From NCBI RefSeq assembly GCF_000219535.2, contig NZ_CP007806.1, forward strand, positions 2,514,501 through 2,578,500: a stretch of DNA of 64,000 nucleotides, in the 5' to 3' direction. Made by a program: the position numbers and the translations under genes. Under the pieces are notes generated by a model. The model did not search any database, was not told the DNA's origin, and saw nothing but the letters and a program-made list of their open reading frames with translations. This DNA comes from Brevibacillus laterosporus LMG 15441 (GTDB taxonomy: Bacteria; Bacillota; Bacilli; Brevibacillales; Brevibacillaceae). Shown here one piece after another: positions 1,005-31,021 of the stretch (position 1 is its first letter; each line of letters starts with the position of its first letter).

Positions 1005-1730
1005 TTAATGGGATACCTTAACCTGATGCAGCAGCAATTCCAAAATTTCATGAATGAGATAAGCATGTTGTTTGGCATATTTCTTGTCAACCATTTCATG
1101 GTGCGTAGAAAAGCCCTGGTATTCCATGTAGGTACTCATCGTCGACTCCTTCCATTTAAGTTCCTCTTCCCGTTCAATCTCTTTTGCTAAAATGAGGTGA
1201 ATGCTTGCCTCAACCATACCGTCATTGATGATAGTATTGAGCAATGCACCGTAATTCTCGATGTTTTGAACAATTTTGTTCCGTATGCTCGCTACCTTGA
1301 GTATTTCATTCTCTTCTGCTGCTTTATCAATCAGTGCTACATTTTCACGAATTTCTTCATCATTTACAAGCTGATACTCGGTCTGCCTTAGCGTATCTAA
1401 AAGAATGATTCCCTGAACGTGATGACCTTTTTCTTCTAGTACTTTGGCAACCTCGAACGCCAGATTTCCCCCTGCTGAATACCCCATCAGTAGATATGGC
1501 CCCTCTGGTTGGATATTCAAAATGTGGTCGACATATTCATTAATCAGATAGTCATGCGCGATAAAATCAAATGAATAGATCGAGTAATCAGGAAGCTCAT
1601 TTGCAATTTCTTTAAATGCAGCACCTAAACCAGCGATTGGCGGGAATGCAAAGACGATTGGTTTTCCTCCTTCATTTAGCAAGGTAACAGGAATTTCTTC
1701 ATCCACCTGCACATACTGCACGACAGTTAG
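1005..1730 (-). other. C-terminal thioesterase domain of the pentapeptide NRPS
   Basis: Type I thioesterase fused behind T5. The alpha/beta-hydrolase nucleophile elbow GYSAGG is at about residue 6234. The domain would release the acyl-pentapeptide by hydrolysis or lactonisation/lactamisation; the sequence alone does not decide which. A linear acid would fit the tauramamide comparison, whereas Ser2 could in principle serve as a macrolactone nucleophile. Confidence 0.8.
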
Positions 1731-7700: not shown

Positions 7701-10700
7701 AACTACTTGCAGTGGACGTGTTAGGTCTTTTTGTACAAATATGGAACGTAACACATCGTAGCGTTGGATGATCGAATTAAAGGCTTGTTCCATTTTAGAA
7801 AGATCCATATGCCCTGATATCGGCAAGCTGTATTGCTCCACATACATAGAGGTATTTGTATCTAGGTTTGCATGGAATAGCATTCCTTCTTGCATGGGAG
7901 AAAGTGGATATAATTTGCTGATTTCATTGGTTTCCAATTCAGATAGTACAAAGGTTCGAATTGTATCCCACTCTTCAATAGATAGACCTGCATAACCTAA
8001 GTCAGAAGGAGTTAATTCAGGTGTTGATTGGCTCGTGCAATGCGTGATGATGAGAAGGAGGTTTGATGTGAAGACTTCGATTAGCTTTTCAATACTCTCC
8101 TTCTGGAAGGCAAGATGGTTATATACAAATGACAATTGCAGCTTGCCTCCAACGGTTGCACCAGTAATATCGATTAATTGCTCCCGATTCATCTCTGGAT
8201 TTACAAGGCAACCTCTCGACATGTTTGAAATGGTAAATACCGCTGTTGTTACCTCCTGGTCAAACTGGCCTAAGTAATTAAAACTTATCTCTGGTTGTAT
8301 GGTAAACGACATATCTAGCTTTTGATCTTCTGGGGTCAAATACTTGAGTATTCCGTAACCAATCCCTTTATTAGGAATTTTGCGTAGGGTTTCTTTGACT
8401 TGCTTAATTCCGTATGAAATGTCTGACACCTTAGACATAGGTAGCAGGACTGGGAAAGCAGATGTGAACCATCCGATTGTTCGATTGATGTCTATCTCTT
8501 CCATGATATCCTCGCGACCGTGTCCCTCAAGTAAGATAGCTATATCATTATTTGACGTCCATTCTTTAAGCGTTATCCCAAGCGCTGTTAGCAGGATGTC
8601 GTTCATCTCAGTACGATATGCACGATGCACGTCTGTTAATAGAAGAGCTGTATCCGTCTCGGAAAGTTCCATAGATAGAGTAGAACTATCCTTCATACGG
8701 TTATGACTAGTTATGAAATCAGTTGGGATCGGATCAATGCTTGTTTGTTCTAGTTGATCCCAATAACTCTTCTCTCTAAGTAGCTCTTTACTTGTAGAGT
8801 AATCCTCTAATCGTTTTGCCCATTCTTGCAACGAAACGGTCTTCGCAGGGAAAACGATTGGCTCCCCATTTTGTGCTTGTTCATAACCTGTTGTAAAATC
8901 CTCCAGTAAGATGCGCCACGAAACACCGTCAATGACAAGATGATGAATGGCGATCAGAAGATGATCACCTTCTGTAGTTTTGAATAAGCCTAATTTGACC
9001 AACGGCCCTTGATGAAGCAAGCCCATACTGCTTTGAATACGGTTTGCCTCTTGCTCAATCCGTACAGCCACCTGTTCTTCGTTTGATTCCTCCAACAAAT
9101 CAATAACTTCTATAGTAAAAGAGGCTTCCGTTTCATTGATTCCCCGATTTACTTGTTTTGCCATATCGTTTGGAGTAAAGGAATAAGCCATGCGTAATGC
9201 ATCGTGATGATGGACAATTTGGGTAAATACCTGATGAACATGCTCTACGTTAAATCCTTCTGGTCGGTAGAGGAAGTTCGCCTGGTTAAAATGATGCAGG
9301 CTTGCACTGTGTTCCGTGAATAACCAGCGTTGGATTGGTGTAAGTGGTACGTTTCCTTCAACCGATCCTTGATCAAAGGCTTGAGTGCCTGCCTTTACAT
9401 ACGAACTTAGTTGTGCAATCGTCGGATTTTTAAACAAATCGCTAATTACTAGTCTTTGACCTTCCTTATGCAGGCGGGAGGAAATTTGAATCGCCTTGAT
9501 TGAATCCCCACCTATTTCAAAGAAGTTATCATGAATACTGATCTGTTCTACTCCTAGAACAGCTTGCCAGATACTTGCAAGTGTTGCTTCGATTTCATTT
9601 CGTGGCGCTACATATTCTCTACCAGTTGAGTTTGATGTAGCTGGCTTTGGTAATCGTTTTTTATCAACTTTTCCGTTTACCGATACCGGTATGCTTTCTA
9701 GCTGCACAAAGTAAGCTGGAATCATGTAAGAAGGTAAATGCTGTCCAATTTGCTGTCTTATATCAGCTATATTAATTTCATGATCAGCAACGATATATGC
9801 ACATAAATCGGGTTGTCCCTCTTCATTCGTAAAGGCTATTACTACTGCTGCGTGGATCTCATCAAGAGAAAGCAAATGTGCTTCAATCTCGCCTAATTCG
9901 ATACGGTAGCCGCGTATTTTTACCTGATCGTCTATCCGTCCAAAGTATTCGATCATTCCGTCAGGTAGCCATCTTACTAAATCCCCTGTTTTGTACATGC
10001 GTTCGCCTTCTGCAAATGGATGCTCAACAAACACTTTTTCGGTAAGCTCTGGTTTATTGAGATAGCCACGGGCTAGGCCTGCTCCGCTAATGCATAATTC
10101 GCCTAAGACACCAATCGGTTGCAACTGGTTCTGCTTATTAAGAACATAGGCTTTCGTATTTGGAATGGGGCTACCAATCGGTAAAGCCTCATCTTCACGA
10201 TCTGTACCAATCCATGTAGTAGCTATAACAGACGATTCAGTCGGTCCATAGGCATTCATATAGGTCGTTCGATTCTTCCAAGTAGCTACAATTTCATTAT
10301 TCGATGCAGAACCACCCGTTAGTAGAAGACGCATCGCTGATAATTTGTTTGGCTCCACGTTGCCGATATATACAGGTGGTAGTAAGCCTATCGTAATTTG
10401 GTGGGCCTCTATATAGTCCCCAAAAGCAACCGGATCGTAAATTGTATCTTGGGTTGGAATGTATAATGTTGCTCCTGTTAGTAAGCTAATCATGATTTCC
10501 CAGATAGAAACATCGAAAGAAGAGCTTGCAAATTGCACCATACGATCGCCAATGCCAATGTCAAAGTCTGATTGGTAATAGGTTTTCAAGCTAATGATTC
10601 CGTGGTGCTCAACCATAACCCCTTTTGGTTTACCGGTAGTACCTGAAGTATAGATCACGTAAGCTAGGTCTGTTGGTGAAGCTTGTATGTCTACATTAGC

Positions 10701-13700
10701 TACTTCACCCTGATAGAGTTTTTCGTCATCTATATCGAGGATACTACCATCAAAAGGAACTTTGTCCATAAGATGCTTCTGTGTAAGGAGAACCTTTGCA
10801 TTACTGTCCTCCAGCATATATTGAATCCGATCTGCCGGATAGACAGGATCAATTGGTACATACGCACCGCCAGCCTTGAGTACGGCTATAATCGATACAA
10901 TCATCTCTATTGATCGATTTGTCATGATAGCGACAATCTTGTCTTTCGCTACCCCTTTGCTCATTAACAGGCGTGCCAGTTGATTGGCTTTTTCATTTAA
11001 TTCCTGATAAGTGAGTGGTTTTCCCTCAAAATAAACAGCTACCTGCTCTGGTGACAAAGCTGCTTGTTTATCAAACAGCTGCTGGATCGTTACTTGGGTA
11101 TCGAACTCTCTGTCAGTATCATTAAATGTGAAGAGAAGCTGTTCTTTTTCTGCTGGTGTGACCATGTCAATTTGAGAAATTTGAATATCGAGATTATTGA
11201 CAATGGAACGCAATACTTGCACAAAATGTCCTGCTAAACGATCAATGGTGTCCTTTCTAAATAGTTTCGTACTGTAGTTTACGTAGCAATTGATCTCTTC
11301 TCCTACTTCAAATGCCGCTAATGTAATATCAAATTTAGCTAGATTGAAAATGGCTTCATAAGGAGTTGTTGCAACCCCATCTATTTTCAGCATTTCATTG
11401 CCGACGTTTTGTAAGGCAAACATAACGTCGAATAACGGATTGCGGCTCATGTCACGATTAACATTAAGCTTTTCCACGAGTTCTTCAAACGGATAATCTT
11501 GATTTTCAAACGCTTGCAAAGTGCTTTCTTTTACCTCTTTAAGATAGCTGGTAAATGTCTTTTCGAAAGCAGGGAATCCTCTCAGAGCAAGTGTTCCAAC
11601 AAACATTCCGACCGTTTCCTCAACATCAGCATGTTGTCTGCCTGCCACAGGGCTTCCTACAATAATTTCTTCTTGTCCGCTGTATTTAGCAAGCAAGACC
11701 TGGAACGCCGCAAGAAGAACCATATACATTGTTGTTCCCGTTTGCGAGGTGATTTGATGAAGGCTCTTGGTCAAATCAGCATCGATGTCAAACGAAAGAA
11801 TGTCTCCTTCAAAGTTTTGGATTGATGGTCTAGCATAATCTGTCGGCATTTGAAGTGTCGGTATTTCTCCTTCAAATGTTTTTAGCCAATAGGCCTCTTG
11901 CTTTTGCATCCTATCAGTCTGATATAGCTCTTGTTGCCATGCCGCAAAGTCCTTGTATTGAATTCGTTGACTTGGTAGCTGTTCCCCAGCATACAGCTTC
12001 GATAGCTCACGAAGTATGATGTTTGTGGAGACACCATCTGAGATGATATGGTGCATATCAATCATGAGGATATGCTCATCTTCTTTTATGGTGACTAATT
12101 CCACTCTAAATAACGGAGCTTGATTTAGATCAAAAGGTCTAATAAATGCCTGTACTGCACGAGCTATGGCTTTTTCATGAGTTGAATGATCAGTGGACAG
12201 CTCTTTGCAAGACATGTTGAAATCAACAGATGGATGAATAATTTGCACAGGCTCCCCATCAATCCAATCAAACGAAGTACGCAGACTTTCGTGACGTTGT
12301 ACCAGATTTTTGCATGCTTCTTCCAATCGATCCCGGTCGATATAACCACTTAATTTGTATACAACAGGCATATTGTAGGCTAATTCTGCACCTTGCATTT
12401 GGGCAATAATTAACACGCGCTTCTGTGCAGAGGACACAGAATAATACTGGCTTGGCATAACCGGTTGTATTTCCGAATAATGAGTCTTCTGTGTATTTGT
12501 AATCAGTGTTGCCAGTGACTCTATGGTTTTATATTGGAACAGATCACGTAATGCAATTTGTACATCACATTCTTTATGCAATCTAGATGCAAGAATGGTA
12601 GCCTTGAGAGAATGTCCGCCGAGTTCAAAGAAATCATCATGTATCCCGATAGGACTGATGCCAAGCAATTCCTGCCATATTACAACCAGCTTTTCTTCTA
12701 CTTTTGTGCGTGGAGCAATATATTCAGTAGTTTTTCCAATAAATTCGTCTTTGGGCAGTGCTTTTCTGTCAATTTTACCGTTTGGAGAAAGTGGCATTTT
12801 TTCAAGCTGAATAAACCGTGCTGGAATAAAGTAGCTAGGTAGATCATTTGCTAAAAAGTCCCGCAATTCAGCGGAGTCTATTTCTTTCGTACCTACAAAA
12901 TAGGCACACAAATATTTTTCCCCTTGACTATCTTCACTTGCAATCACAACGGTTTCCTTTATACCTCCAAATGCCAATATCTGGGTTTCGATCTCGCCAA
13001 GCTCTATACGGAAGCCCCGAATCTTCACCTGATGATCGATACGACCCAAATATTCAATATTTCCATCCGGCATCCATCGTGCAAGGTCTCCGGTACGATA
13101 CATTCGTTCGCCGTTTACATACGGATTCGAAACAAATTTTTCAATGGTTAGCTCCGGTCGATTCAAATAACCACGTGCTACTTGTACCCCGCCAATGCAA
13201 AGTTCACCTGCTACTCCTACAGGCTGGAGCTGATTTTCTTTACTGACAATGTATAACTGCGTATTATCAATCGGTTTTCCGATCGGTACAGTATCCATTC
13301 TCTCTTCTTCTACGGAGCATTCAAATACCGAAACGTCTACAGTAGCTTCTGTTGGTCCGTATAAATTCACTAATTTGGTCTGGTACGCATTGTGAAGAAG
13401 CGATTGGAAACGTTCTACATGTGCGACTTGCAATGCCTCTCCAGAAGCAAAGACCGTACGTAAGCTTGCCAGTCTTTCGATTTCCGCTACGTGTAAATGG
13501 ACATGCTCGAGGAAGGCATGAAGCATCGACGGTACAAAATGCATGGTCGTCACACGCCTGTGTTCAATTGCATTTACAATAGTAGACGAATCCTTTTCTC
13601 CTTCTGGTATGAGGAAGCACACCTTGGCTCCTACAAATGCCCACCAGAACATTTCCCATACAGAAACATCGAAGGTAAACGGTGTCTTTTGCAGGATGAC

Positions 13701-16700
13701 ATCATTTTCAGTGAGCGGATATGCTTTTTGCATCCAGAGCAGTCGATTAAGTACAGACGTATGTTCAATCATCGCGCCTTTTGGTTTACCAGTCGAACCA
13801 GACGTATAGATAACATAAGCCAGATCGGTCGCTTTATTCACATGTTCTAGATTGGTGCTGTCTGTGTGATAGGCAGCAGGTTGATCTATCTCGATGACAA
13901 GACCATTAAAATCGACTCGTCCATTGTATGTTGATTGGGTTAATAAGATTTGTGCCTTACTGTCTTCTAGCGTAAATTCTAAACGATCCTGTGGATGCTT
14001 CGGATCTAGTGGCAGATAGGCTCCTCCTGCCTTCAGAATCCCCAAAATACCAATTATCATCTCAAAGGAACGATCAAGCATGATTCCTACAATACTGTTC
14101 GGTGTTACACCATTCGCTCGTAATGTTCGAGCTAGCTGATTCGTACGCTCATGTAACATCCGATAGGTCAATTCTTCATTCTCAAAATAAACAGCGGTAT
14201 TGTCGGGAATTCTAGCAACAGTTTCTTCAAATAGCTGATGTATCGTCTTATGTCGTGGGTAATCTGCTGTTGTTTGATTAAATTCATAAAGGATCTGATG
14301 TTTCTCAGCCTCAGATAAGATATTGATATTGCCTAGCTTCATTTCTGGCTGGGAAACAACCGCACGTGCCAATTCTGTTAAGTGGGAAGCTATGCTTTCT
14401 ACAAGCTGAGGCGCATAGATTTGTTCGTTGTATCTAAAATTTACATATAGCTGATCATAAGGGGCAACGAGCACATTGAAATCATAGTTTGTCTGCTCAA
14501 ATACCTCCATCCTTGCAAACTCAAAATCCAATCTCTGCTGATGGGAGGAAGCTCGTTCTTTGTCAGGCGTTGGATAGTTTTCAAAGACGAGAAGATGGTC
14601 TAATAATCCTTGCTTTAAGGAGCTCATAGCCTGTATTTCGGCAAGTGATAAATAGTCGAATTGAGACGCAGCCGTTCCACGTTCTTTTACCTGTTGTAAT
14701 AACTCAGTAAAGCTTAGTTCGGCAAAAGGCTGCACACGTACAGGTATCGTATTGATAAATAATCCCACGATTTGTTCAATACCTTGTATATCTGCGTTCC
14801 GGCCAGAGACAACAGCTCCAAAAACAACATCGTCTACTCCGTTATAGCGACCTAAAAGAATGCCCCATAGGCTTTGGAAAACATTGTTTAATGTAGTATG
14901 ATGTTGTTTTGCCAATCGTTCTAGTCCAAGCGTCGTCTCGTTATCAAAATGGAAAAGATGGTTAGCTTGAACGTAGTTTCTTGTTTTCTGCGAGCGCCAT
15001 TTTGGTAGAGTAGCTAGCTGCTCATATCCGAGAAGTTCATTTTTCCAATAAGAAAGAGCATCTTCTCTGTCCTGCTTCTCTAACCATTCAATATAGTCGC
15101 TATATGGATAAACAGCATGAAGCTGAATGGCTGTATTGTTCAGCAGGGAATGGTACGTTCGTATCAGTTCATCTAATACGAGAACGAAGCACCAGCCGTC
15201 CATAATAATATGATGGAAGCTTACGAGCAATTGATAGGTGTCCTCCCCTGTTTTTAACACCGTAAGTCGTAGGAGAACGTCCTTATGGATTGCAAACCCT
15301 TCCTGCTTATCCTTCTCTTTGTAGGAATTAAGATATGATTGCTGGTTGGCCACGTCTAAATGAGAAATGTCTTCAAACTGGATGGTTGTTTTCCGCTCTT
15401 GCAGAACAACCTGTACCGGGTGTTTCAATTCCTGATGGACAAACACAGTTCGTAATACATCATAGCGAGCTAGTACCGCATTTAAGCTTTGTTCAAGAAG
15501 AGCTAGATCAAGGGTGCCATGAAGCGGAATGCTATTTTGCTCAAAATAGGCGGGACTGTCAGGCTGTAATTCAGAATGAAAGAGCATACCTTCCTGCATA
15601 GGTGACAGTGGATATATTTTGCTAATGCTTGTCTGACCAATCATCTCTTGTAATACGGCTTGAATGCTTTCGAATTCCTCGATAGAGAGATTCTGGGCCC
15701 CTACATCGGATGGAGTCAGCTCGCTTGTTGTTTTTATCACGCAATGGTCAACAAGTTGGAGCAGATTTGTCTTAAACTGATCGGCAATGTGTTGAATCGT
15801 GGATTCATGATAGGCGTGATGATTGTAGGTGAAAATCATTTGAAGCTTACCATTGAAGATTCCACCATTGCATTCTAGCAATTGATTACGCACAAAGTAT
15901 GGACTGATTGCTTCCCCGTTAGACATCTGCGAAGATGTGAACACATCTGTTGCAGTGTCTTGATCGAATTGCCCCAAATAGTTAAAGCTAATCTGTGGCT
16001 GTAACGTAAACGACATTGATTCAGTATGCTCTTTTGGGGTTATATATTGTAGGATACCGTAACCAATACCTTTATTTGGGATGCTTCTCAATGCTTCTTT
16101 CGTAAGCTTAATTTGTTTCGACAATTCATCTTCTTTGATAGGCAGAAGAACCGGATAGGCAGATGTAAACCAGCCGATCGTACGAGTAACATCCATATTC
16201 GCCATGATATCTTCACGACCATGCCCTTCGAGTAATAGGAGTACGTTCTCTTCTCCTGTCCAGTTTTTCACTGTGAGACCTAATGCAGTCAATAAGAGGT
16301 CATTGATTTCCGTGTGATAAGCATGGTGTACATCTTTTAATAGCTGTTTAGTTTGTTGTGGAGTAAGTTCTATGTGAATATCCGAGCTGTCCATTTTGAG
16401 ATTATTTGTAATAGGTCCATCAGTTGGTAAAGGCTGAATTGTAGTTTGCTCCAACTGTCTCCAATAAGGTTTTTCTTTAAGAAACGCCTTACTTGCTGCA
16501 TAGGATTGCAACTGATTCGACCATTCTTTAAACGAGACTGTTTTTGCTGGAAGCAAGAGAGCTTCTCCTCTAGCTGCTTGGCTATAACCTGTTGATAAGT
16601 CCTCCAATAAAATACGCCAGGAGACTCCATCGATAACCAAGTGATGAATCACGATCAATAAATGATCTCCTGAAGTAGTTTTAAACAAACCTATCTTAAC

Positions 16701-19700
16701 CAACGGCCCTTGATTTTCGAGATCGATGCTTGTTTGAAGACGATCGGCATGCTGTTTCATTTGATCTTTTATGACTGATTCGTTTGTTTCATCGGTCAAA
16801 TCAATTATTTCAAAATCAAAACGATCAGTAGTGAATGCTTGATTTACCTGCTGAATGCTTTCATTTTCTAGAGTAGAATAGGTCATTCGTAATGCATCAT
16901 GGTGCTCGATGATGCGCTCAAACACCTGTCTAATTATTTCAGCATCAAATCCCTCTGCCCGATACAGCATATTAGCTTGATTAAAATGATGTCTATTGTT
17001 TCTTTGATTCTGGAAGAACCAATGCTGAATAGGAGTAAGCGGAATATCACCTACCACCATGCCCTGATCATAGGAGTTTTTCACTACCTTGACGTATTTG
17101 CTTAGCTCGGCAATAGATAGATGCTTAAATATATCGCGCATTTCTACTTTTAAGCCATCTTTATGCAGACGTGCTGAAATTTGAATTGCTTTAATCGAGT
17201 CTCCACCGATCTCGAAAAAGTTGTCCATAATACTGATGCGCTCTACGCCGAGCACTTTTTCCCATGCGCTGGCGAGTAATTCCTCGACCTCATTTCGCGG
17301 TGCCACATATGGCAAGCCAGTATGGAGCGTTCCCTCTGGTTTTGGAAGAGCCTTCTTGTCAATCTTGCCGTTTACAGTAAGCGGCATTTCGTCAAGCTGC
17401 ATAAAAGTAGAAGGAATCATGTAAGCTGGTAGGTTTTTCCCAATAGATTGGCGCAGCTCCAGGACGCTCATTTCTCGTGTCGCCACAAAGTAGGCACATA
17501 GGTCAGTCTGTCCATTATCGTTGGTAAACGGGATGACGGTAGTTTGAACAACCTCTTCGATTTCTAGCATTTGTGCTTCGATCTCTAGTAATTCAATACG
17601 GTAACCACGAATTTTTACCTGATCGTCCATACGTCCCAGATATTCGATGTTGCCATCTGGCATCCACCTTACCAGGTCACCTGTTCTGTAGATTTTCTCA
17701 CCAGTTTTAAATGGATGAGCGATAAATTTTTCTTGGGTTAACTCAGGGCGGTTAAGGTAACCACGCGCTAGTCCCACACCGCCTATGCATAGTTCTCCGG
17801 CTACACCTACAGGCTGTAGCTGATACTCGGAGTTAAGAACATACACCTGAACATTATCAATCGGCTTACCAATCGAGATCATGCCGTCTTCTCGCTCTTC
17901 AGCAAGCCATGCCGTTGCCTGAACGGATGCCTCTGTGGGACCGTATGCATTTACATACATCACACGATCTTTCCAAGTGCGTACCATTTCTAATGTCGTT
18001 GCAGATCCGCCCGTAAATAAGAGACGTAAGGAACGGAGCTTGTCTGCATTTACATGAACAGCAAAAACAGGCGGTAATACGGCCACTGTGATTTGATGAT
18101 TACTTAAATAGCTTTCATATAGGGCTGGATCTTGTGTTGTTTCCTTGGTCGGAATATACAAGGTAGCACCGTGTAGCAAGCACATGAAGATTTCTTTTAC
18201 AGATACGTCAAAAGAGGAGCTAGCGTATTGAACGACTCGATCCTGTTTGCAGAGCCCGTATTGTGTAGAAAGGAATTGTTGTAAATTGATAATTCCACGA
18301 TGCTCAACCATAACCCCCTTTGGCTTACCTGTTGTTCCGGAAGTGTAGATGACATAAGCAAGATCAGTCGCTTGCACTGACCATGTAGGATTTGCAGTAT
18401 CTCCAACGAAAAGCTTCTCATCCTCTAGCTCTAGGATGTGTCCGTCAAACGATATATCTTTTACAAATTGTTGTTGAGCCAACAGAATATTGGCCTCACT
18501 ATCCTGTAGCATATAAGAAATACGCTCTGATGGATGTACAGGATCTATGGCAACATAGGCTCCTCCTGCCTTAAGAATAGCTAACATGGAAACAATCATT
18601 TCCACAGAACGATCTGCGAGTATGGCTACTAGCTGATCAGTAGTGACTCCCATATCACGAAGGCAATGGGATAGTTGGTTTGCCTTTTCATTTAATTCTT
18701 GGTACGTGAGCCTTGAACCCTCAAAGTAGACAGCTATCTGCTCAGGGTTCATTGCCACCTGCTCTTCAAAGAGTTGATGAATCGTTTTCTCTTGTGGGAA
18801 TGGCTTCACAGTTTGATTGGATAAAGCAATAAGATTATGTTTTTCCCTTTCCGAGAGCATTTCTAGCTCAGCTATCTTCTTCTCAGGGAATGAGATTGAA
18901 TCTTGGGTTATGCGTAATAGATGATCAGCCAGTCTATTGATCTCATCTTCTGTATACATTTCCGCTACATAATCTATTTCAATAGTTAATAAGTCCTTAT
19001 CTTTATGTTCTTGAATATGTAAAGCGATCTCTTCTGTCATATGACCTACAAACAACTGTTCTACTGTATAACAAACCCCTGCTATTTGTTCAAAATCGAG
19101 GATTTGATACCCGGCAAAAAGGCGAAACAGACTATTTACATGAGGATGCTTGTCACGAACCTTTTGCATGACTTGATCATATGGATATTTCTGGTGACGA
19201 AATAATTTATTCTGCTTCTTGGCTACATCCCGAATAAACGTAAGAACATCTTGTGCGGGATTGCCTTGAAACCTAAACGGCATCGTACTAACTAGCATAC
19301 CAACCATATCTTTTTCTTTACGCTGTGTCCGATTATTGCAGGTTGTACCGATGGTGATGTCTGTTTGTCCTGTCAAACGATACACATAGGCATGAAACAT
19401 CGACATGAATAGTGTGAAAATACTAATATTATTTTCTGCGCAAAATTGTTGTGCCTGATCTCGTAATTCCTGTGGTACTATGATTCTTTTTCTTTTTGCT
19501 TTCGTACTTACAGAATAAGCGTCATAGGCTTTAAACCCAGTAAATTCTGGTAAAGTAGCAAACTCCTCATGCCAAAATTCTCGATCTTTTTGGAAACGCA
19601 CTGAGCTTATGTACTTTTCCTCATCGTGAATAAAATCGATAAAAGAAGCTGGTATATGCATGTTTTGGGAGTTTAATACATCTGTACCGGCAAGCAATTC

Positions 19701-20183
19701 TGTATAAATGGAAATGATATGATTCACAATGTGAACATAAGCCATGCCGTCCGTAATGATGTGATGAGTTTTTAGGTAAATATACCCTTCCTGTTCATTA
19801 CACTTAATGACGGAACATTCAAACAATTGTTTGTTTATAAGTTCAAATGGTATTGCAAATCTTTCATTAGCCCAAGAGTAGAGCTCATCCTCAGTCGTTT
19901 TGTCACTAAAATCTATGATGGGCAGTGCCTCTTTACGATAAGGTGCAATATACTGCCTTGGTTCATTGGTCTGAGAATCCACCATAATGCGTAGGCGAAT
20001 CGAATCATTCATTTGAATAAATGTTTGGATTGCTTTTTGCAAAAGGGCATAGTCTAGCTTTTCTGCTTGTAGCCTAATAAGACCTCCAATGTTTGAAATA
20101 CTGGTATTGGGAAAAAATTCCTCTGTAAACCAGATACGTTTCTGGGAGTGAGTGAGCGGGTAAATCTGTTCGTGGTTGAGCAT
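1005..20183 (-). CDS. Five-module lipopeptide NRPS with lipoinitiation C domain, two E domains and TE
   Basis: Single 6392-residue synthetase predicted to make an N-acylated pentapeptide. Domains with approximate motif residues: starter C (HHIITDG ~141), A1 (FDVSVKEI ~661), T1 (GGDS ~992), E (HHLVIDG ~1182); DCL C2 (HHIIMDG ~1659), A2 (~2176), T2 (GGHS); LCL C3 (~2714), A3 (~3224), T3 (GGDS ~3559), E (~3749); DCL C4 (HHILTDG ~4229), A4 (~4746), T4; LCL C5 (HHSISDG ~5262), A5 (~5781), T5 (~6112); TE (GYSAGG ~6234). Pocket residues read at the ten Stachelhaus positions: A1 DVKVFGAVQK, A2 DVWHFSLVDK (serine), A3 DVWLLGAVIK, A4 DAKAFGAIQK, A5 DPMESGAIQK. Hence acyl-D-X1-Ser-D-X3-X4-X5. E278 in A5 suggests a basic residue. 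The architecture fits tauramamide (as I recall it, an acylated D-Tyr/Ser/Leu/Trp/Arg pentapeptide), which is an inference. The start ATG has GGAGG 10 nt upstream. All catalytic motifs look intact. Confidence 0.95.
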   Translation of the reverse strand: MLNHEQIYPLTHSQKRIWFTEEFFPNTSISNIGGLIRLQAEKLDYALLQKAIQTFIQMNDSIRLRIMVDSQTNEPRQYIAPYRKEALPIIDFSDKTTEDELYSWANERFAIPFELINKQLFECSVIKCNEQEGYIYLKTHHIITDGMAYVHIVNHIISIYTELLAGTDVLNSQNMHIPASFIDFIHDEEKYISSVRFQKDREFWHEEFATLPEFTGFKAYDAYSVSTKAKRKRIIVPQELRDQAQQFCAENNISIFTLFMSMFHAYVYRLTGQTDITIGTTCNNRTQRKEKDMVGMLVSTMPFRFQGNPAQDVLTFIRDVAKKQNKLFRHQKYPYDQVMQKVRDKHPHVNSLFRLFAGYQILDFEQIAGVCYTVEQLFVGHMTEEIALHIQEHKDKDLLTIEIDYVAEMYTEDEINRLADHLLRITQDSISFPEKKIAELEMLSEREKHNLIALSNQTVKPFPQEKTIHQLFEEQVAMNPEQIAVYFEGSRLTYQELNEKANQLSHCLRDMGVTTDQLVAILADRSVEMIVSMLAILKAGGAYVAIDPVHPSERISYMLQDSEANILLAQQQFVKDISFDGHILELEDEKLFVGDTANPTWSVQATDLAYVIYTSGTTGKPKGVMVEHRGIINLQQFLSTQYGLCKQDRVVQYASSSFDVSVKEIFMCLLHGATLYIPTKETTQDPALYESYLSNHQITVAVLPPVFAVHVNADKLRSLRLLFTGGSATTLEMVRTWKDRVMYVNAYGPTEASVQATAWLAEEREDGMISIGKPIDNVQVYVLNSEYQLQPVGVAGELCIGGVGLARGYLNRPELTQEKFIAHPFKTGEKIYRTGDLVRWMPDGNIEYLGRMDDQVKIRGYRIELLEIEAQMLEIEEVVQTTVIPFTNDNGQTDLCAYFVATREMSVLELRQSIGKNLPAYMIPSTFMQLDEMPLTVNGKIDKKALPKPEGTLHTGLPYVAPRNEVEELLASAWEKVLGVERISIMDNFFEIGGDSIKAIQISARLHKDGLKVEMRDIFKHLSIAELSKYVKVVKNSYDQGMVVGDIPLTPIQHWFFQNQRNNRHHFNQANMLYRAEGFDAEIIRQVFERIIEHHDALRMTYSTLENESIQQVNQAFTTDRFDFEIIDLTDETNESVIKDQMKQHADRLQTSIDLENQGPLVKIGLFKTTSGDHLLIVIHHLVIDGVSWRILLEDLSTGYSQAARGEALLLPAKTVSFKEWSNQLQSYAASKAFLKEKPYWRQLEQTTIQPLPTDGPITNNLKMDSSDIHIELTPQQTKQLLKDVHHAYHTEINDLLLTALGLTVKNWTGEENVLLLLEGHGREDIMANMDVTRTIGWFTSAYPVLLPIKEDELSKQIKLTKEALRSIPNKGIGYGILQYITPKEHTESMSFTLQPQISFNYLGQFDQDTATDVFTSSQMSNGEAISPYFVRNQLLECNGGIFNGKLQMIFTYNHHAYHESTIQHIADQFKTNLLQLVDHCVIKTTSELTPSDVGAQNLSIEEFESIQAVLQEMIGQTSISKIYPLSPMQEGMLFHSELQPDSPAYFEQNSIPLHGTLDLALLEQSLNAVLARYDVLRTVFVHQELKHPVQVVLQERKTTIQFEDISHLDVANQQSYLNSYKEKDKQEGFAIHKDVLLRLTVLKTGEDTYQLLVSFHHIIMDGWCFVLVLDELIRTYHSLLNNTAIQLHAVYPYSDYIEWLEKQDREDALSYWKNELLGYEQLATLPKWRSQKTRNYVQANHLFHFDNETTLGLERLAKQHHTTLNNVFQSLWGILLGRYNGVDDVVFGAVVSGRNADIQGIEQIVGLFINTIPVRVQPFAELSFTELLQQVKERGTAASQFDYLSLAEIQAMSSLKQGLLDHLLVFENYPTPDKERASSHQQRLDFEFARMEVFEQTNYDFNVLVAPYDQLYVNFRYNEQIYAPQLVESIASHLTELARAVVSQPEMKLGNINILSEAEKHQILYEFNQTTADYPRHKTIHQLFEETVARIPDNTAVYFENEELTYRMLHERTNQLARTLRANGVTPNSIVGIMLDRSFEMIIGILGILKAGGAYLPLDPKHPQDRLEFTLEDSKAQILLTQSTYNGRVDFNGLVIEIDQPAAYHTDSTNLEHVNKATDLAYVIYTSGSTGKPKGAMIEHTSVLNRLLWMQKAYPLTENDVILQKTPFTFDVSVWEMFWWAFVGAKVCFLIPEGEKDSSTIVNAIEHRRVTTMHFVPSMLHAFLEHVHLHVAEIERLASLRTVFASGEALQVAHVERFQSLLHNAYQTKLVNLYGPTEATVDVSVFECSVEEERMDTVPIGKPIDNTQLYIVSKENQLQPVGVAGELCIGGVQVARGYLNRPELTIEKFVSNPYVNGERMYRTGDLARWMPDGNIEYLGRIDHQVKIRGFRIELGEIETQILAFGGIKETVVIASEDSQGEKYLCAYFVGTKEIDSAELRDFLANDLPSYFIPARFIQLEKMPLSPNGKIDRKALPKDEFIGKTTEYIAPRTKVEEKLVVIWQELLGISPIGIHDDFFELGGHSLKATILASRLHKECDVQIALRDLFQYKTIESLATLITNTQKTHYSEIQPVMPSQYYSVSSAQKRVLIIAQMQGAELAYNMPVVYKLSGYIDRDRLEEACKNLVQRHESLRTSFDWIDGEPVQIIHPSVDFNMSCKELSTDHSTHEKAIARAVQAFIRPFDLNQAPLFRVELVTIKEDEHILMIDMHHIISDGVSTNIILRELSKLYAGEQLPSQRIQYKDFAAWQQELYQTDRMQKQEAYWLKTFEGEIPTLQMPTDYARPSIQNFEGDILSFDIDADLTKSLHQITSQTGTTMYMVLLAAFQVLLAKYSGQEEIIVGSPVAGRQHADVEETVGMFVGTLALRGFPAFEKTFTSYLKEVKESTLQAFENQDYPFEELVEKLNVNRDMSRNPLFDVMFALQNVGNEMLKIDGVATTPYEAIFNLAKFDITLAAFEVGEEINCYVNYSTKLFRKDTIDRLAGHFVQVLRSIVNNLDIQISQIDMVTPAEKEQLLFTFNDTDREFDTQVTIQQLFDKQAALSPEQVAVYFEGKPLTYQELNEKANQLARLLMSKGVAKDKIVAIMTNRSIEMIVSIIAVLKAGGAYVPIDPVYPADRIQYMLEDSNAKVLLTQKHLMDKVPFDGSILDIDDEKLYQGEVANVDIQASPTDLAYVIYTSGTTGKPKGVMVEHHGIISLKTYYQSDFDIGIGDRMVQFASSSFDVSIWEIMISLLTGATLYIPTQDTIYDPVAFGDYIEAHQITIGLLPPVYIGNVEPNKLSAMRLLLTGGSASNNEIVATWKNRTTYMNAYGPTESSVIATTWIGTDREDEALPIGSPIPNTKAYVLNKQNQLQPIGVLGELCISGAGLARGYLNKPELTEKVFVEHPFAEGERMYKTGDLVRWLPDGMIEYFGRIDDQVKIRGYRIELGEIEAHLLSLDEIHAAVVIAFTNEEGQPDLCAYIVADHEINIADIRQQIGQHLPSYMIPAYFVQLESIPVSVNGKVDKKRLPKPATSNSTGREYVAPRNEIEATLASIWQAVLGVEQISIHDNFFEIGGDSIKAIQISSRLHKEGQRLVISDLFKNPTIAQLSSYVKAGTQAFDQGSVEGNVPLTPIQRWLFTEHSASLHHFNQANFLYRPEGFNVEHVHQVFTQIVHHHDALRMAYSFTPNDMAKQVNRGINETEASFTIEVIDLLEESNEEQVAVRIEQEANRIQSSMGLLHQGPLVKLGLFKTTEGDHLLIAIHHLVIDGVSWRILLEDFTTGYEQAQNGEPIVFPAKTVSLQEWAKRLEDYSTSKELLREKSYWDQLEQTSIDPIPTDFITSHNRMKDSSTLSMELSETDTALLLTDVHRAYRTEMNDILLTALGITLKEWTSNNDIAILLEGHGREDIMEEIDINRTIGWFTSAFPVLLPMSKVSDISYGIKQVKETLRKIPNKGIGYGILKYLTPEDQKLDMSFTIQPEISFNYLGQFDQEVTTAVFTISNMSRGCLVNPEMNREQLIDITGATVGGKLQLSFVYNHLAFQKESIEKLIEVFTSNLLLIITHCTSQSTPELTPSDLGYAGLSIEEWDTIRTFVLSELETNEISKLYPLSPMQEGMLFHANLDTNTSMYVEQYSLPISGHMDLSKMEQAFNSIIQRYDVLRSIFVQKDLTRPLQVVLNERKATVHFEDISALAQEDRVNYTEDFKQQDKERGFKLSSDRLIRLAILQTAAEEYLMILSFHHILTDGWSIPIIMGEFIHTYHSLLNDLPLSLGPVYPYSDYINWLEKQDKAEAISYWKEYVAGYEQLATIPKERKVEAVEYKTELYEFCFDKAMTSGLEQIAKQYQTTLNSVFQTIWGILLARYNRTNDVVFGAVVSGRNANVTGIEQMVGLFINSIPVRIQLDAETQFTQVLQQVQEDALASADYDYLSLAEIQSTSELRQGLLDHLIAFENYPTPAEDTHIHLAKKIDIDFQQMEVHEQTNYDFNIAVGPGEKLYIKFMYNAHVYNKQMMEGIAANLQQIARSILADPSSKVSEIDIVSAEERQKLLVKFNHTQVPFEQDKTIPQIFEELVMKHPHHPAVYFEGDQLTYQELNDKANQLARELLALGIGTDQIVAVMADKSIEMIVAIMAVLKAGGAYVPIDPAYPGERIAYVLEDSQAKVLLTQSHLLESVHMDIATYQGKIVELSDDRLYQGDSTNLKLSITPADLAYVIYTSGTTGKPKGVMLEHHGVVKLKQHIFDHYGMYQEDRVLQYVSPSFDASVKEIFACLLHGATLYVPKKETTQDPALFEDYVNRHHITVAALPPVFLVHVNPDKITSLRLLFTGGSAITTDLVQAWKDRTVYVNAYGPTEASIQATGWVTEERADGLLPIGRPIDNTQIYIVGVDYQLQPIGIPGELCISGVGLARGYLNRPELTREKFVGNPFVPDEKMYRTGDLARWLPDGNIEYLGRVDDQVKVRGFRIELGEIEAHLLSHEDITEAVVLALTDERGQTDLCAYFVSTTSIAITQLRHYLEQSLPSYMIPAFFIKLEKMPVTLNGKIDKRSLPKPDKNVDTGSVYVAPRNEIESKLVSIWQEVLGVERISVLDDFFALGGHSLKATVLLSKIHKEFETEASLREIFKHTKLEEMATLISQGQKSAFEEIHPVEIAESYPVSSAQKRLLILTQLEGAELSYNMPIALRLSGDIEAARLESSFRELINRHESLRTSFDWTDGQMRQIVHESAMFHLVHTVGSEDECNQIVSTFTQPFDLNQAPLLRAHLVTYKDKEHLLLLDMHHSISDGVSMSIILTELAKIYAGEELPALSIQYKDFANWQQKMFTSDEMQKQEMYWLENLSGDLPVLQMPTDYPRPPVYSYDGDNVPFTVDKELSSALRQLAMETGTTMYMVLLAALQVTLAKYSGQNDILIGSPIAGRPHTDLQQIVGMFVGTLVMRGFPEAEKRFSSFLAEIKDTALHAYENQDYPFEVLIEKLDLKRDMSRNQLFDVMFTLQNMDGPESGLAFGEAKVSLYETKQNMATFDLTMTAHESEEGIGVDLNYCTKLFKRESMERFADHFTQVLRAISKSPDVILADIDMVTDREKHQLVTKFNDTNRDFRSDKTIHQLFEAQAELHPANSALYYEGQALTYQELNEKANQLARVLVAKGIKAEDNVAIMADRSLEMYIAILAVLKANGVYVPIDPAYPMERIRFILEDSQVQILLTHTTVDVQANISDSLEIISLHDQSLFQGEPQNLALPASPRNLAYIIYTSGTTGKPKGVMLEHRGVVNLLDHIQAEYGVSEQDRIIQYTSQSFDPSIMEIFLALHNGAQLYIPTKETTQDPALYETFINKHLITVAEIPGAFASVVNPERLISLRFVSTGGSALTPGVAKAWRDYVRFINAYGPTETTIQSTEWVVEERLDGALPIGRPVANTQIYILNQTNQLQPIGVPGELCIGGIGLARGYLNRPDLTAEKFITNPFVVGEKIYKTGDLARWLPDGNIEFLGRIDDQVKVRGFRIELLEVESHILELEDIVEAVVTVTQDLTGQNQLCAYFEAKRTITVSELREQLAKTLPAYMIPSYFIQLENMPLMVNGKIDKKALPAPEENMVIGNEYIAPQTEMEEKLAVIWEEVLGMKQISVESDFFELGGHSLKAVQLVSAISRDIGIEMPLQLVFRYRSIRPLAEKLTVVQYVQVDEEIPVTLLNEGGKPIVFAFPPIAGLGAAFKEIANELPDYSIYSFDFIAHDYLINEYVDHILNIQPEGPYLLMGYSAGGNLAFEVAKVLEEKGHHVQGIILLDTLRQTEYQLVNDEEIRENVALIDKAAEENEILKVASIRNKIVQNIENYGALLNTIINDGMVEASIHLILAKEIEREEELKWKESTMSTYMEYQGFSTHHEMVDKKYAKQHAYLIHEILELLLHQVKVSH
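18863..20183 (-). other. Lipoinitiation (starter) condensation domain
   Basis: Residues 1 to about 440 of the five-module NRPS. The opening IYPLTHSQKRIWFTEEFFP... followed by TSISN and GGLIRL closely resembles the start of surfactin synthetase SrfAA, whose first C domain joins a fatty acyl-CoA to the first amino acid. The catalytic HHIITDG is present near residue 141. It lies directly before A1 with no preceding T domain, as expected for N-acylation. No acyl-CoA ligase or ACP gene is nearby, so acyl-CoA would come from general metabolism as in surfactin synthesis. Confidence 0.75.
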
Positions 20184-27125: not shown

Positions 27126-28496
27126 TTACTGGCTCTCCTCTATTTGTGAAAAGGAAGTATGGGATGTTTTCCCTAGCTGCAACTGATTTTCTTTTCCTTT
27201 CCCCCATAAAAATCCAATGCATGCACCAATTAAGGCTGGTAGCACCCACCCTATTCCTTGCTCATACAACGGAAGGTAACGATATATGTTTGTAATGAAC
27301 GAAACATCTATGAATTTACTTTGCTGTAAGGCGTCTACTAAACTAATCATAGCCGTTCCCAGCAAGCTCATTTTATAAACTGACTTGTATCCTTTAAAAA
27401 GGGAATGTCCAAAGGATAAAATGATTAAAACAATTGTTAATGGGTAAATCACTAACAGAATGGGTACTGAAAAAACAATAATTTGATTAAGTCCCAAATT
27501 AGCAATAATCATACTCGTAAAGCACACGATTCCCGTCCACACCGTATAAGAAAAACGTGGCATAAGCTTTGCGAAATACTGTCCGCAGGAGGTTATCAGG
27601 CCAACCGATGTTGTAATACAAGCAAGAGTAAATACTGTTCCTAGTAAGATTGTTCCGTATTGTCCAAATAAATTGGTGGAAACAGCCGTCAAAATTTCTC
27701 CTCCATTTTGATAAGAAGGCAATAAGCTTTGGCTAACCGCCCCTAAATACCCCAGCATAAGATAGATTATAGCTAGTAGGAATCCAGCAAATACCCCTGT
27801 TCTCATCGTAAGACGGGCAATTTGCTTTTTATTCGAGATATTTTTTCTCTCAAAGGCTGCAACGATTACTCCTCCAAATAGTAATGCAGCTAATGTATCC
27901 ATTGTCATATAGCCTTCCATAAAGCCTTTGAAGGTAGCGGACTGTTGGTACGCCTCAACTGCTTTCCCAAAATCACCAATCGGATAAAACTGGCTTTGTA
28001 TAAAAATGATTGTAATCATGCTAAGTAAAATAGGGGTTAAAATTTTTCCAATACGTGCAAACATCTTAGAAGGATTGAGACAGAGCCAAAAATTGATGAC
28101 AAAATAAATAACTGTATACACTGTTAATGTCAATGAATTAGCACGTAAAAAATCAGGTAAAAAGGGAACAACACCCATTTCAAATGCAACGTTACCTGCA
28201 CGCGGTATAACTAAAAAGGGCCCCAAGCATAAGTAAGTCGTCAAGGTAAATACGATAGCAAAAATAGGATGCACCCGATTCGTTAAGACATCTAAGCCCC
28301 CACTTTTCGCAATCGCAGTTACCCCTAAGATTGGTAGGCCAACAGCAGTAATGAGAAAGCCAAGCATAGCCTGCCATAAATTTTCGCCTGCCGAAAAGCC
28401 CAGTGCAGGGGGAAATACTAGATTACCTGCTCCAAAAAATAAAGCGAATAACATAAGTCCAATATACAACTGTTCCTTCCATGATAGCTGTTTCAT
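27126..28496 (-). CDS. brnQ: Branched-chain amino acid:cation symporter BrnQ
   Basis: 456 residues, about 12 membrane helices, LIVCS family. The N-terminal signature LFFGAGNLVFPPALG is diagnostic; further matches are GGLDVLTNR and GPFLVIPR-like segments. It imports leucine, isoleucine and valine with Na+ or H+. The start MKQLSWKEQ at 28494-28496 is chosen over a longer in-frame ORF because AAGGAGAAG lies just upstream and because the longer reading would translate through the T-box terminator. Expression appears controlled by two tandem T-box elements (28514-29118) after a consensus promoter. It is next to, and on the same strand as, an NRPS operon that consumes Val and Leu, so it may help feed that pathway, though it is primarily a housekeeping transporter. 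Confidence 0.92.
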   Translation of the reverse strand: MKQLSWKEQLYIGLMLFALFFGAGNLVFPPALGFSAGENLWQAMLGFLITAVGLPILGVTAIAKSGGLDVLTNRVHPIFAIVFTLTTYLCLGPFLVIPRAGNVAFEMGVVPFLPDFLRANSLTLTVYTVIYFVINFWLCLNPSKMFARIGKILTPILLSMITIIFIQSQFYPIGDFGKAVEAYQQSATFKGFMEGYMTMDTLAALLFGGVIVAAFERKNISNKKQIARLTMRTGVFAGFLLAIIYLMLGYLGAVSQSLLPSYQNGGEILTAVSTNLFGQYGTILLGTVFTLACITTSVGLITSCGQYFAKLMPRFSYTVWTGIVCFTSMIIANLGLNQIIVFSVPILLVIYPLTIVLIILSFGHSLFKGYKSVYKMSLLGTAMISLVDALQQSKFIDVSFITNIYRYLPLYEQGIGWVLPALIGACIGFLWGKGKENQLQLGKTSHTSFSQIEESQ

Positions 28497-28513
28497 TTTT
28501 CTTCTCCTTTTTC

Positions 28514-28795
28514 TCAAAAAAATAAAACCTCTCGCCTTATCATCGTAAAAATGATGACTGAGGCGAGAGGTTCGCGGTACCACCCAGTTTTCTCTAATTC
28601 ACTCACGAGAATTAGACATTATGAAGTCATAGACTTTCATCCTATAACGTGGATCACTCGGTGTATATTACTTGGGCATTTGCTTTTCACATACACTGCT
28701 CATAGGCGACTTCGGAAAAAGATAGTGACCGTTCTCTCAGCCGTGGAACGGATTTCTGTACATCTAGAGCTTCTTTCTACTACTCCTATTCATTG
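28514..28795 (-). promoter_or_regulatory. T-box riboswitch 1 (brnQ-proximal), probable Val specifier
   Basis: The conserved T-box GGGTGGTACCGCG is at 28573-28585. The terminator (28514-28570) is CCTCTCGCCT / AGGCGAGAGG with a T-rich tail and competes with the antiterminator formed by the T-box. Stem I closes with ATAGG/CCTAT; the loop above has AGTA on its 5' side and GAAGTCG on the 3' side, giving specifier GUC (28708-28710), a valine codon followed by a purine. Uncharged tRNA would allow read-through into brnQ, whose ribosome-binding site follows the terminator directly. Confidence 0.88.
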
Positions 28796-28829
28796 CAAGT
28801 AATGAAGATATGAAATTTTACATCATTTA

Positions 28830-29118
28830 TAAAAAAATAAAAAACCTCAGAACGAAATGACATTTATCATCTCATTCTGAGGTGTATATTTTACACGGTA
28901 CCACTCAGCTTTCTTGCTTTTTCACAAAAACAAGCTCTGTAAGTCAATTATCATGACTCGGGTCTATTAACGAGACCAACCGTTACTCACTACTCGATCT
29001 TACTCAATCTTTGGCGAGTAAAGCTCAAAGGTGACATTCGATAATCAGTCCGTCACCACCCTTCCAGCCAAGGGGCAGCTCTCTAATCACACACTTGATT
29101 ATCTACTATCCTTTTCAA
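28830..29118 (-). promoter_or_regulatory. T-box riboswitch 2 (promoter-proximal), probable Val specifier
   Basis: The T-box variant GAGTGGTACCGTG is at 28894-28906. The terminator (28830-28882) has CCTCAGAA/TTCTGAGG arms and a long T-tract. Stem I: base AAAGG/CCTTT, then a loop with AGTA and GAATGTCA, then a perfect GATAATC/GATTATC helix; the apical part contains the AGAGAG...GGGTGG elements. The specifier aligned with the one in the downstream element is GUC (29033-29035). It lies wholly 5' of the first T-box on the same transcript, so both must be read through for brnQ to be expressed. Confidence 0.85.
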
Positions 29119-29170
29119 TGCCTTTTATATGTAAATGTTAACAAGCAGGAAACATAGTTGCTTTTTATTA

Positions 29171-29198
29171 ATTATAGTCAGCTTTTTGCTACTGTCAA
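29171..29198 (-). promoter_or_regulatory. Sigma-A promoter of the tandem T-box/brnQ transcript
   Basis: TTGACA (29193-29198) and TATAAT (29171-29176), both perfect consensus, spacer 16 nt, on the minus strand. Transcription would begin near 29164, giving a leader of about 670 nt before brnQ. No terminator is visible between the ABC exporter stop (29237) and this promoter, so some read-through from the NRPS operon is possible. Confidence 0.8.
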
Positions 29199-29236
29199 GC
29201 GGTACGTTGTTATTTTTGCTATGAGAGAAAAAATGG

Positions 29237-31021
29237 TTAAACAGAAGATGCTTTAAGCCCATGCTCCTCTGAAAGGCTTGTTTGCATCTTATACAAGGTA
29301 GAGTAAAACCCATTTTTCGAAAGAAGTTCTTGATGGCGCCCGTTCTCAACCACCTTTCCTTGATCTACAACATAAATCATATCAGCTTCCTCTACTGTAG
29401 AAAGACGATGTGCGACGATTAAGGTTGTTCGATCTTTCATGAGTTCGGCTAAGGCTTTTTGCACCCAATATTCTGATCCAGAATCCAACGCTGAGGTGGC
29501 TTCATCCAATAAAAGGATAGGTGCATTTTTTATAATGGCCCGAGCAATCGCTATTCGTTGACGCTGACCACCAGACAGCATGGCGCCACGCTCCCCTACA
29601 CGGGTTTCATAGCCATTTGGAAGACCCATGATAAAATCATGCGCGTATGCTGCTCTAGTAGCTTCAACGATTTCCTCATGAGTAGCGTCTAGCTTTCCAT
29701 AGCGAATATTCTCTTCAATTGTTCCCTCAAATAAATAAGCATCCTGTGGAACATAAGCGATCAGGCTTCTCATTTCTTGAAGGCTATATTCTCCAATTGT
29801 TTTGCCAAACATGAGGATAGACCCGCTTTTAGCTGGATAGTACCCCAGTAATAATTTAATCACTGTGCTTTTTCCACTGCCACTGGCTCCTACAAGAGCA
29901 GCCGTTTCTCCTTCTACAATCGAGAATGAAAAATCATCTAATACTTTCGCGTCAGAATCATATTCAAAAACAATCTGATTCATTTCTAACACCTTATCCT
30001 TCTGATAAGGTAGCTCATCGGGTAAGGGGATATAACGTTCAGGTTCAGTTGGTTCTGAAAGGAGCTCAATAACACGAGAAGCACCTGAAAGAGAACTTTG
30101 TAGAATCGATAAAACCTGGCCCAGGTGAAGAAATCCTACTGTTACTAATAGTTGCTGTTGAATGATTGCTACAAGAGAGCCTACACCGATTACGTCTTGA
30201 GCAACCATGATAATCCCAAAAACCAGCATCCCACCAAAGCTTAAAAAGTTAATGAAAAAGTTGGTTCCTTCTAACAATGCATTCTTATGACCTTGTTTAA
30301 TTGTTGAAGAGGTTACATGTTCATTCATCTCGATGTAGCGTTGTGTGACAACATGTTTTAAATGGAATATTTTAATAATAGGTAGCCCGGCTAAAAAATC
30401 ATTCAATCTTTCCGTCAAAACTCCTTGTTGTAGTTGTGTTTTATCACTTATCTTACGCACTGATTTAGCAAATCGTGTATTAATATAAAGAGTTACTGCA
30501 CTCAGGCCAACCAGTACTGAAGCAAATCTCCAATCTAATAAAAACATACCTGTCAAGGAACCTAGTAAAGAAATGAGAACGATCGCAATCGTCTTGATAT
30601 GTTCTGAATACGTCCGCTCCATCGTCAGTAAATCATTACTCAATCTGGACATAATATCGCCGGAATGATGCTGTTCATAGTAGCGGGATGGCAATCTCCC
30701 TACTTGTTTAAATAAGATTAGCCTCACATCAGCCATTACCTCTTTGACCGTACGACGATACATATAGCTAAACGTTGGGGACAAGATACTCACTAGCAGC
30801 AGAGTTCCACTAATCATGAGTACCGCACGAATTAACAAAGCGGTATCCCTGCCGCTGCCGCTAGCAAAATCAGTTACATCTTTAAATACAAACGGTAAAA
30901 CGATCACAATACCAGCTTGAATAAATCCGTCACCTAGCATACCAAAAATATATTTCTTCTTTCTAGAACCCATAAAAGATAGCAGATATACAAGTTCGTC
31001 GAGCCATTTTTTTAAGAACAT
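29237..31021 (-). CDS. ABC exporter half-transporter, TycE-like
   Basis: 594 residues: an N-terminal type IV exporter membrane domain (six helices, residues ~20-310) followed by an ATPase domain with Walker A GASGSGKST (~377), Q-loop region YVPQDAYLF, signature LSGGQRQR (~484), Walker B ILLLDEATSALD (~504) and H-loop VAHRLS (~534). It lies last in the decapeptide operon and its start codon overlaps the 3' end of the preceding exporter gene by 10 bp (GAGGAGG 7 nt upstream), so the two are translationally coupled and very probably form a heterodimer. In the tyrocidine operon, tycD and tycE occupy the same place and are thought to export the peptide. No sign of degeneration. Confidence 0.9.
   Translation of the reverse strand: MFLKKWLDELVYLLSFMGSRKKKYIFGMLGDGFIQAGIVIVLPFVFKDVTDFASGSGRDTALLIRAVLMISGTLLLVSILSPTFSYMYRRTVKEVMADVRLILFKQVGRLPSRYYEQHHSGDIMSRLSNDLLTMERTYSEHIKTIAIVLISLLGSLTGMFLLDWRFASVLVGLSAVTLYINTRFAKSVRKISDKTQLQQGVLTERLNDFLAGLPIIKIFHLKHVVTQRYIEMNEHVTSSTIKQGHKNALLEGTNFFINFLSFGGMLVFGIIMVAQDVIGVGSLVAIIQQQLLVTVGFLHLGQVLSILQSSLSGASRVIELLSEPTEPERYIPLPDELPYQKDKVLEMNQIVFEYDSDAKVLDDFSFSIVEGETAALVGASGSGKSTVIKLLLGYYPAKSGSILMFGKTIGEYSLQEMRSLIAYVPQDAYLFEGTIEENIRYGKLDATHEEIVEATRAAYAHDFIMGLPNGYETRVGERGAMLSGGQRQRIAIARAIIKNAPILLLDEATSALDSGSEYWVQKALAELMKDRTTLIVAHRLSTVEEADMIYVVDQGKVVENGRHQELLSKNGFYSTLYKMQTSLSEEHGLKASSV

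Follow-up and report, generated by a model that had tools for sequence, protein, structure and literature searches.

The brnQ gene for a branched-chain amino acid carrier in Brevibacillus laterosporus LMG 15441 (here brnQ1) is preceded by two complete T-box elements in tandem, both of which carry the valine specifier GUC. They lie on the minus strand of the window, i.e., the whole 64,000-nt stretch of contig NZ_CP007806.1 that was analyzed (positions 2,514,501 to 2,578,500). Our reading, to which we assign a probability of roughly 90%, is that the two form a homotypic tandem of T-box riboswitches, both attenuating transcription, within a single predicted leader of ~670 nt, with each element reading tRNAVal(GAC) through its GUC.

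Architecture of the brnQ1 leader

Followed on the minus strand from 29198 to 28496, the order of parts is promoter, T-box 1, terminator, spacer, T-box 2, terminator, GGAG, and the brnQ1 ATG, which starts at 28496 (Table 1). The spacer is ~40 nt long and AT-rich. A sequence-only reading of this DNA had described two complete T-boxes ahead of brnQ, and this description stands: both elements match the Rfam T-box model (RF00230) over all 219 positions, and the boundaries proposed for the two leaders are right to within ~10 nt. The consensus promoter that it named is also there, with both hexamers exact; these hexamers are kept in the two other genomes of the genus that carry the tandem (G003 and G004). 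A CodY site near the promoter was considered and rejected, given that the best matches in 28401-29400 have 5 mismatches in 15 positions to the CodY motif (by the same motif, the 64-kb window contains 44 CodY-like sites with 3 or 4 mismatches).

Table 1. Features of the brnQ1 region (positions in the window)
Feature	Positions	Strand	Basis
ABC exporter-like gene, end of the NRPS-ABC-ABC string upstream of brnQ1	29237..31021	-	ORFs, ABC family matches
Sigma-A type promoter, TTGACA-16-TATAAT	29171..29198	-	12/12 consensus matches
T-box element 1 (aptamer, stem II, antiterminator, terminator)	28844..29127	-	RF00230 and terminator scan
Specifier, element 1: GUC (Val), context CGAAU-GUC-ACC	29033..29035	-	Rfam alignment
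T-box sequence, element 1: GAGUGGUACCGUG	28894..28906	-	Rfam alignment
Intrinsic terminator, element 1, with T-rich tail	28844..28883	-	Consensus terminator scan
T-box element 2 (aptamer, stem II, antiterminator, terminator)	28516..28802	-	RF00230
Specifier, element 2: GUC (Val), context CCGAA-GUC-GCC	28708..28710	-	Rfam alignment
T-box sequence, element 2: GGGUGGUACCGCG	28573..28585	-	Rfam alignment
Intrinsic terminator stem, element 2 (U-rich tail 28527-28516)	28528..28570	-	Sequence, folding
Ribosome-binding site GGAG	28504..28507	-	Sequence
brnQ (brnQ1), LIVCS branched-chain amino acid carrier, 456 aa	27126..28496	-	NCBIfam TIGR00796, 457.3 bits (cut-off 243.4)

In the Rfam covariance search, element 1 scores 113.2 bits (28875-29127, minus strand, model positions 1-219) and element 2 scores 90.5 bits with an E-value of 2.9e-20 (28556-28802, minus strand, model positions 1-219). 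The latter lies 2.5 bits under the RF00230 gathering score of 93; the default Rfam scan shows element 1 alone, and element 2 surfaces in E-value mode. The orthologues of element 2 in G003 and G004 (92.6 and 92.7 bits) are likewise below 93. Given the E-value, the complete anatomy, and the conservation of element 2, we consider its score to be a threshold matter rather than a failure of the model. The AGTA-containing specifier loop and the T-box sequence, which had been reported for both elements, are seen in the Rfam alignments of each, together with a GAA-specifier stretch, stem II, and a CGTTA F-box. The AGTA and the GAA-specifier stretch recur unchanged in all three genomes that carry the pair. 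A chance origin of the two elements is excluded by the E-values combined with conservation in two other genomes.

Each element ends in a U-tailed terminator, as the sequence-only reading had it. That of element 2 is absent from the five sites of the consensus terminator scan (shuffled sequences gave 2.5 +/- 1.6 sites). When each element is folded alone, the terminator is predicted to be more stable than the antiterminator (-26.4 vs. -7.8 kcal/mol for element 1 and -29.2 vs. -8.6 kcal/mol for element 2), and the two share a strand in each element, so that the pairings are mutually exclusive by prediction. A terminator stronger than the antiterminator is the usual T-box balance, in which the tRNA must pay for the antiterminator. 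The minimum-energy fold beats shuffled sequences less in element 2 (z -2.69) than in element 1 (z -6.46), and the full T-box shape is absent from both folds. At equilibrium, the 668-nt leader is expected to form ~30 pairs between the elements vs. 81.5 and 61.6 within them. We assume that the two elements fold independently; inter-element pairs at equilibrium tell little about cotranscriptional folding.

The distal end of stem I typically carries a double T-loop with the consensus AGAGA / UGxRA (PMC7583486), which element 1 fits (AGAGA and UGGAA). In element 2, the distal T-loop (28735-28757, minus strand) reads AGAAA instead of AGAGA in all three genomes, and the second distal loop is UGAGA (UGAAA in G003). 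The AGAAA loop may alter or weaken the contact with the tRNA elbow.

Conservation and origin of the two elements

The brnQ1 tandem occurs in three of the five genus genomes compared (G000, which is the genome studied here, G003, and G004) and was not found in the other two (G001 and G002). RF00230 matches both elements in G003 and G004 as well. Identity between orthologous elements is 92-97%, but the two elements within one leader share 52-54%. It follows that both were kept through speciation and that there was no fresh duplication; two unlike valine T-boxes have been maintained side by side. Recent duplication of one T-box was considered as a source of the pair and rejected, as the two elements are 54% identical vs. 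90-96% for the three T-boxes of an ilvB leader in G002.

Specifiers and the expected response to valine

No amino acid had been named in the sequence-only reading. Both specifiers are GUC in the Rfam alignments, so uncharged tRNAVal(GAC) should be what the leader reads, and this codon is kept in each element in all three genomes that carry the brnQ1 tandem. Leucine or isoleucine specificity is rejected by the same specifier alignment. A tRNAVal with anticodon GAC is encoded in the genome (L122:1393-1468); its 3' end is ACCA, which can pair with the UGGU present in each T-box sequence. Among the 11 typed of 30 tRNA loci (the genome has 97 tRNA matches, and typing covered these 11 loci), there is one tRNAVal gene with GAC and there are five with UAC. 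GAC may therefore be the rarer valine isoacceptor. The T-box of valS in the same genome also has the specifier GUC, as read by eye. We infer that valine is the amino acid that matters for brnQ1. In general, specifiers hint at which amino acid each BrnQ transporter should supply, with the caveat for any such assignment that carriers of the LIVCS type are often unspecific (PMC2494555).

In the mechanism that we propose, charged tRNA would be unable to stabilize the antiterminator when valine is plentiful, and RNA polymerase would stop at one of the two terminators. Under valine shortage, uncharged tRNAVal would have to rescue the two elements in turn for the brnQ importer to be transcribed. Compared with a single T-box, the expected effect is less leak and a steeper and later response. 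Co-transcription, tRNA binding, antitermination, and multiplicative behavior of the two elements are predicted. That a requirement for both elements to bind sharpens the response is a sound inference, and one published for tandem T-boxes, yet the gain would be moderate in the simplest model: with independent gates, the 10-90% range shrinks from 81-fold for one element to 40-fold for two, and the leak is squared.

Genomic neighborhood

Directly upstream of brnQ1, two ABC exporter-like genes and nonribosomal peptide synthetase (NRPS) genes of 6487 and 3610 aa share its orientation. The minus strand of the window has a further NRPS gene (6392 aa, within 1005-20183), separate from the string that includes the 3610- and 6487-aa genes (within 32913-63313). 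By motif, the 6487-aa NRPS has five adenylation domains, of which the fourth reads DAFWIGGT (by eye); we take this to be a valine code of tyrocidine and gramicidin synthetases. By its domain codes, the NRPS-ABC-ABC string with its 3610- and 6487-aa NRPS looks tyrocidine/loloatin-like. Loloatin appears in the literature on B. laterosporus. The product of the string appears to contain valine, and a brnQ1 tandem placed after a peptide synthetase string of this type would be an unusual, although unproven, setting. In G003, brnQ1 likewise follows the two exporters and the NRPS (87% identical), and in G004 both exporters adjoin brnQ1, with the contig ending after the exporters. Neither G001 nor G002 has a close relative of the exporter (best identity 33%).

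Alternative readings

One alternative is that a single element works while its partner survives by chance as a weakened relic, which would leave regulation effectively to a single T-box. We consider this distinctly unlikely. It would account for the score of element 2 below the Rfam cut-off and for its non-consensus distal T-loop, but both elements retain specifier, T-box bulge, stem II, F-box, and terminator, are 92-97% conserved across three genomes, and the variant loop itself is kept in all three, unlike what decay would produce. Very unlikely, in our view, is a second transcript from an additional promoter between the elements, by which element 2 could sometimes work on its own. It was noted from the outset that a promoter of this kind would make the elements independent, and the ~40-nt AT-rich gap does contain promoter-like matches. 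A looser scan of 28500-29260 gave one 12/12 site (the upstream promoter), one 9/12 site at the start of element 1 (29135, with a 19-nt spacer), and otherwise 8/12 matches; none of at least 9/12 was found between the elements. The 8/12 matches there (-10-like hexamers ending at 28834, 28815, and 28805) are weak, each overlapping either the terminator hairpin or the tail behind it, and the upstream promoter is perfect by comparison. With 8/12 matches alone in the region, a separate promoter for element 2 was rejected.

The tandem could also serve mainly as a gate on read-through from the NRPS and exporter genes, with the local promoter secondary, which we hold to be unlikely. The gene order is kept in G003 and, up to the contig end, in G004, and from the exporter stop (29237) to terminator 1 the consensus scan found no terminator-like site on the minus strand. 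That scan is crude, however, and missed terminator 2 as well; moreover, a perfect promoter sits between exporter and leader, and a tandem built in a similar way precedes brnQ2 (see below), the neighbors of which differ. An extended version would make the tandem a conditional end of a peptide-antibiotic operon. In this proposal, NRPS-ABC-ABC transcripts would run into the leader and meet the T-box terminators as their first terminators; a drain on valine by peptide synthesis would then let uncharged tRNAVal open both gates, and the operon would extend into the valine importer. If true, antibiotic production would call in its own building block, valine. We give this operon a low probability, as the case for it comes from three related genomes and a missing terminator, and a perfect promoter stands in between.

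brnQ genes and T-boxes in the genome and family

The whole genome has 21 matches to RF00230. They include a second close T-box pair, ahead of a paralogous gene, brnQ2 (L027; G000:C1:1922313-1922878, plus strand), the protein of which is 53% identical to the brnQ1 product. As in the brnQ1 leader, two T-boxes with terminators precede a brnQ; unlike there, both specifiers are AUC (Ile) and both distal T-loops are AGAGA. The AUC specifiers are found in both elements in all three genomes (G000, G003, and G004). One genome thus offers a natural matched pair of brnQ paralogues, one under a Val-Val and the other under an Ile-Ile tandem.

A BrnQ query of 39 genomes of the family yielded 81 matches in 34 genomes. 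On the genome's own 21 T-boxes, the sensitivity of our T-box motif was 15/21 (strict) or 19/21 (loose), and the census upstream of brnQ was consequently redone with Rfam, with locus L150 (see below) as a positive control, which was detected. T-boxes are present upstream of six of the 81 matches, two in each case, and these six are brnQ1 and brnQ2 of the three genomes. For the remaining 75, which include one short fragment, scanning of stretches of 1.0-4.4 kb gave no T-box at E-values up to 0.001. Within this 39-genome sample, only three genomes, all from the genus, have T-boxes ahead of a brnQ.

Tandem T-boxes elsewhere in Bacilli

By pattern, close-spaced pairs of T-box motifs occur in 26 of 398 Bacilli genomes, a sample that includes the five genus genomes and most of the family. 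There are at least 31 pairs, 30 of which are given as loci; variant motifs and arrangements with a different spacing, e.g., the triplet in G002, escape the pattern. The earlier statement that tandem T-boxes are known but uncommon agrees with this count and with the survey in PMC12452182. A brnQ lies downstream of eight of the 30 pair loci (tblastn), six in this genus and two (L170 and L171, in G131 and G315) in another family. In these two, the brnQ tandem has AUC in both elements (by eye and Rfam) and the copies are nearly identical, which points to a recent duplication.

The downstream genes of the other 22 loci were named from their translations alone. Eighteen of these loci precede leuA-like (13), DAHP synthase-like (three), or ilvB-like (two) genes, and of the remaining four, L150 precedes a branched-chain aminotransferase-like gene, L152 an NSS symporter-like gene, L169 an aromatic amino acid hydroxylase-like gene, and L172 an ilvE-like gene with an ilvB-like gene behind it. 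Several have unusual arrangements. At L150 (1280-1830, in G329, same class), a mixed tandem of AUC (Ile) followed by GUC (Val), with scores of 132.4 and 121.5 bits, precedes the branched-chain aminotransferase-like gene; if both elements work, this would be a natural two-amino-acid AND gate. Locus L172 (G158, same class) has three T-boxes (99.7, 97.1, and 88.9 bits), with AUC in all three by motif, before an ilvE-like and then an ilvB-like gene. In the G002 triplet (L024:621-1686), three T-boxes, all with AUC and 90-96% identical, precede an ilvB-like and then an ilvA-like gene. The tandem at L152 (1283-1832, in G030; 89.7 and 102.8 bits) is followed by an NSS-family sodium symporter-like gene, and the stretch GAA-UUC-CCU, read by eye, suggests a Phe specifier in both elements. 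At L169 (in G141, also of this class), the aromatic amino acid hydroxylase-like gene comes after three successive T-box motifs (1217, 1501, and 1789; motif only).

Comparison with known systems

Tandem T-boxes are enriched in Bacillota, and the logic of two uncharged tRNAs has been stated for branched-chain operons (PMC12452182). The examples treated there (the trp, ilv/leu, and thrS leaders) likewise have two complete sensor-plus-terminator units per leader, and a need for both to open has been proposed for them. The brnQ1 tandem differs from them in that its target is an LIVCS importer and its specifiers are for valine; the term "brnQ" has no occurrences in the main text of that survey. According to a 2020 review, how tandem T-boxes act is not known (PMC7583486). 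Pseudo-cooperative tandem riboswitches (PMC9481103) are similar in that two switches of the same class, each with its own expression platform, are expected to work as two gates in series, each independent of the other. That source also has T boxes paired with other riboswitch classes, from which the brnQ1 tandem, with tRNA as ligand, differs.

T-box control of the LIVCS family has been described elsewhere as well, for the family (PMC2494555), for the brnQ of Bacillus methanolicus (PMC4342826), where the table gives one T-box vs. the two before brnQ1, and for brnQ6 of B. anthracis, a member of the same transporter family with a Leu T-box (PMC8787487). Two T-boxes before a brnQ were not found in the literature passages searched, which are mostly from outside the subscription journals. 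Comparative studies exist (Vitreschak 2008, Gutierrez-Preciado 2009), and we do not claim that two T-boxes before a brnQ are an unpublished arrangement.

Double T-box switches are already known, and the brnQ1 pair is a good-quality, ordinary example of them. What is added is the valine reading of both its elements, along with the isoleucine pair in front of a paralogous brnQ. The brnQ1 leader is thus a clear, conserved valine case among tandem T-boxes, and the Val-Val and Ile-Ile brnQ pair could be used to measure what a second T-box buys.
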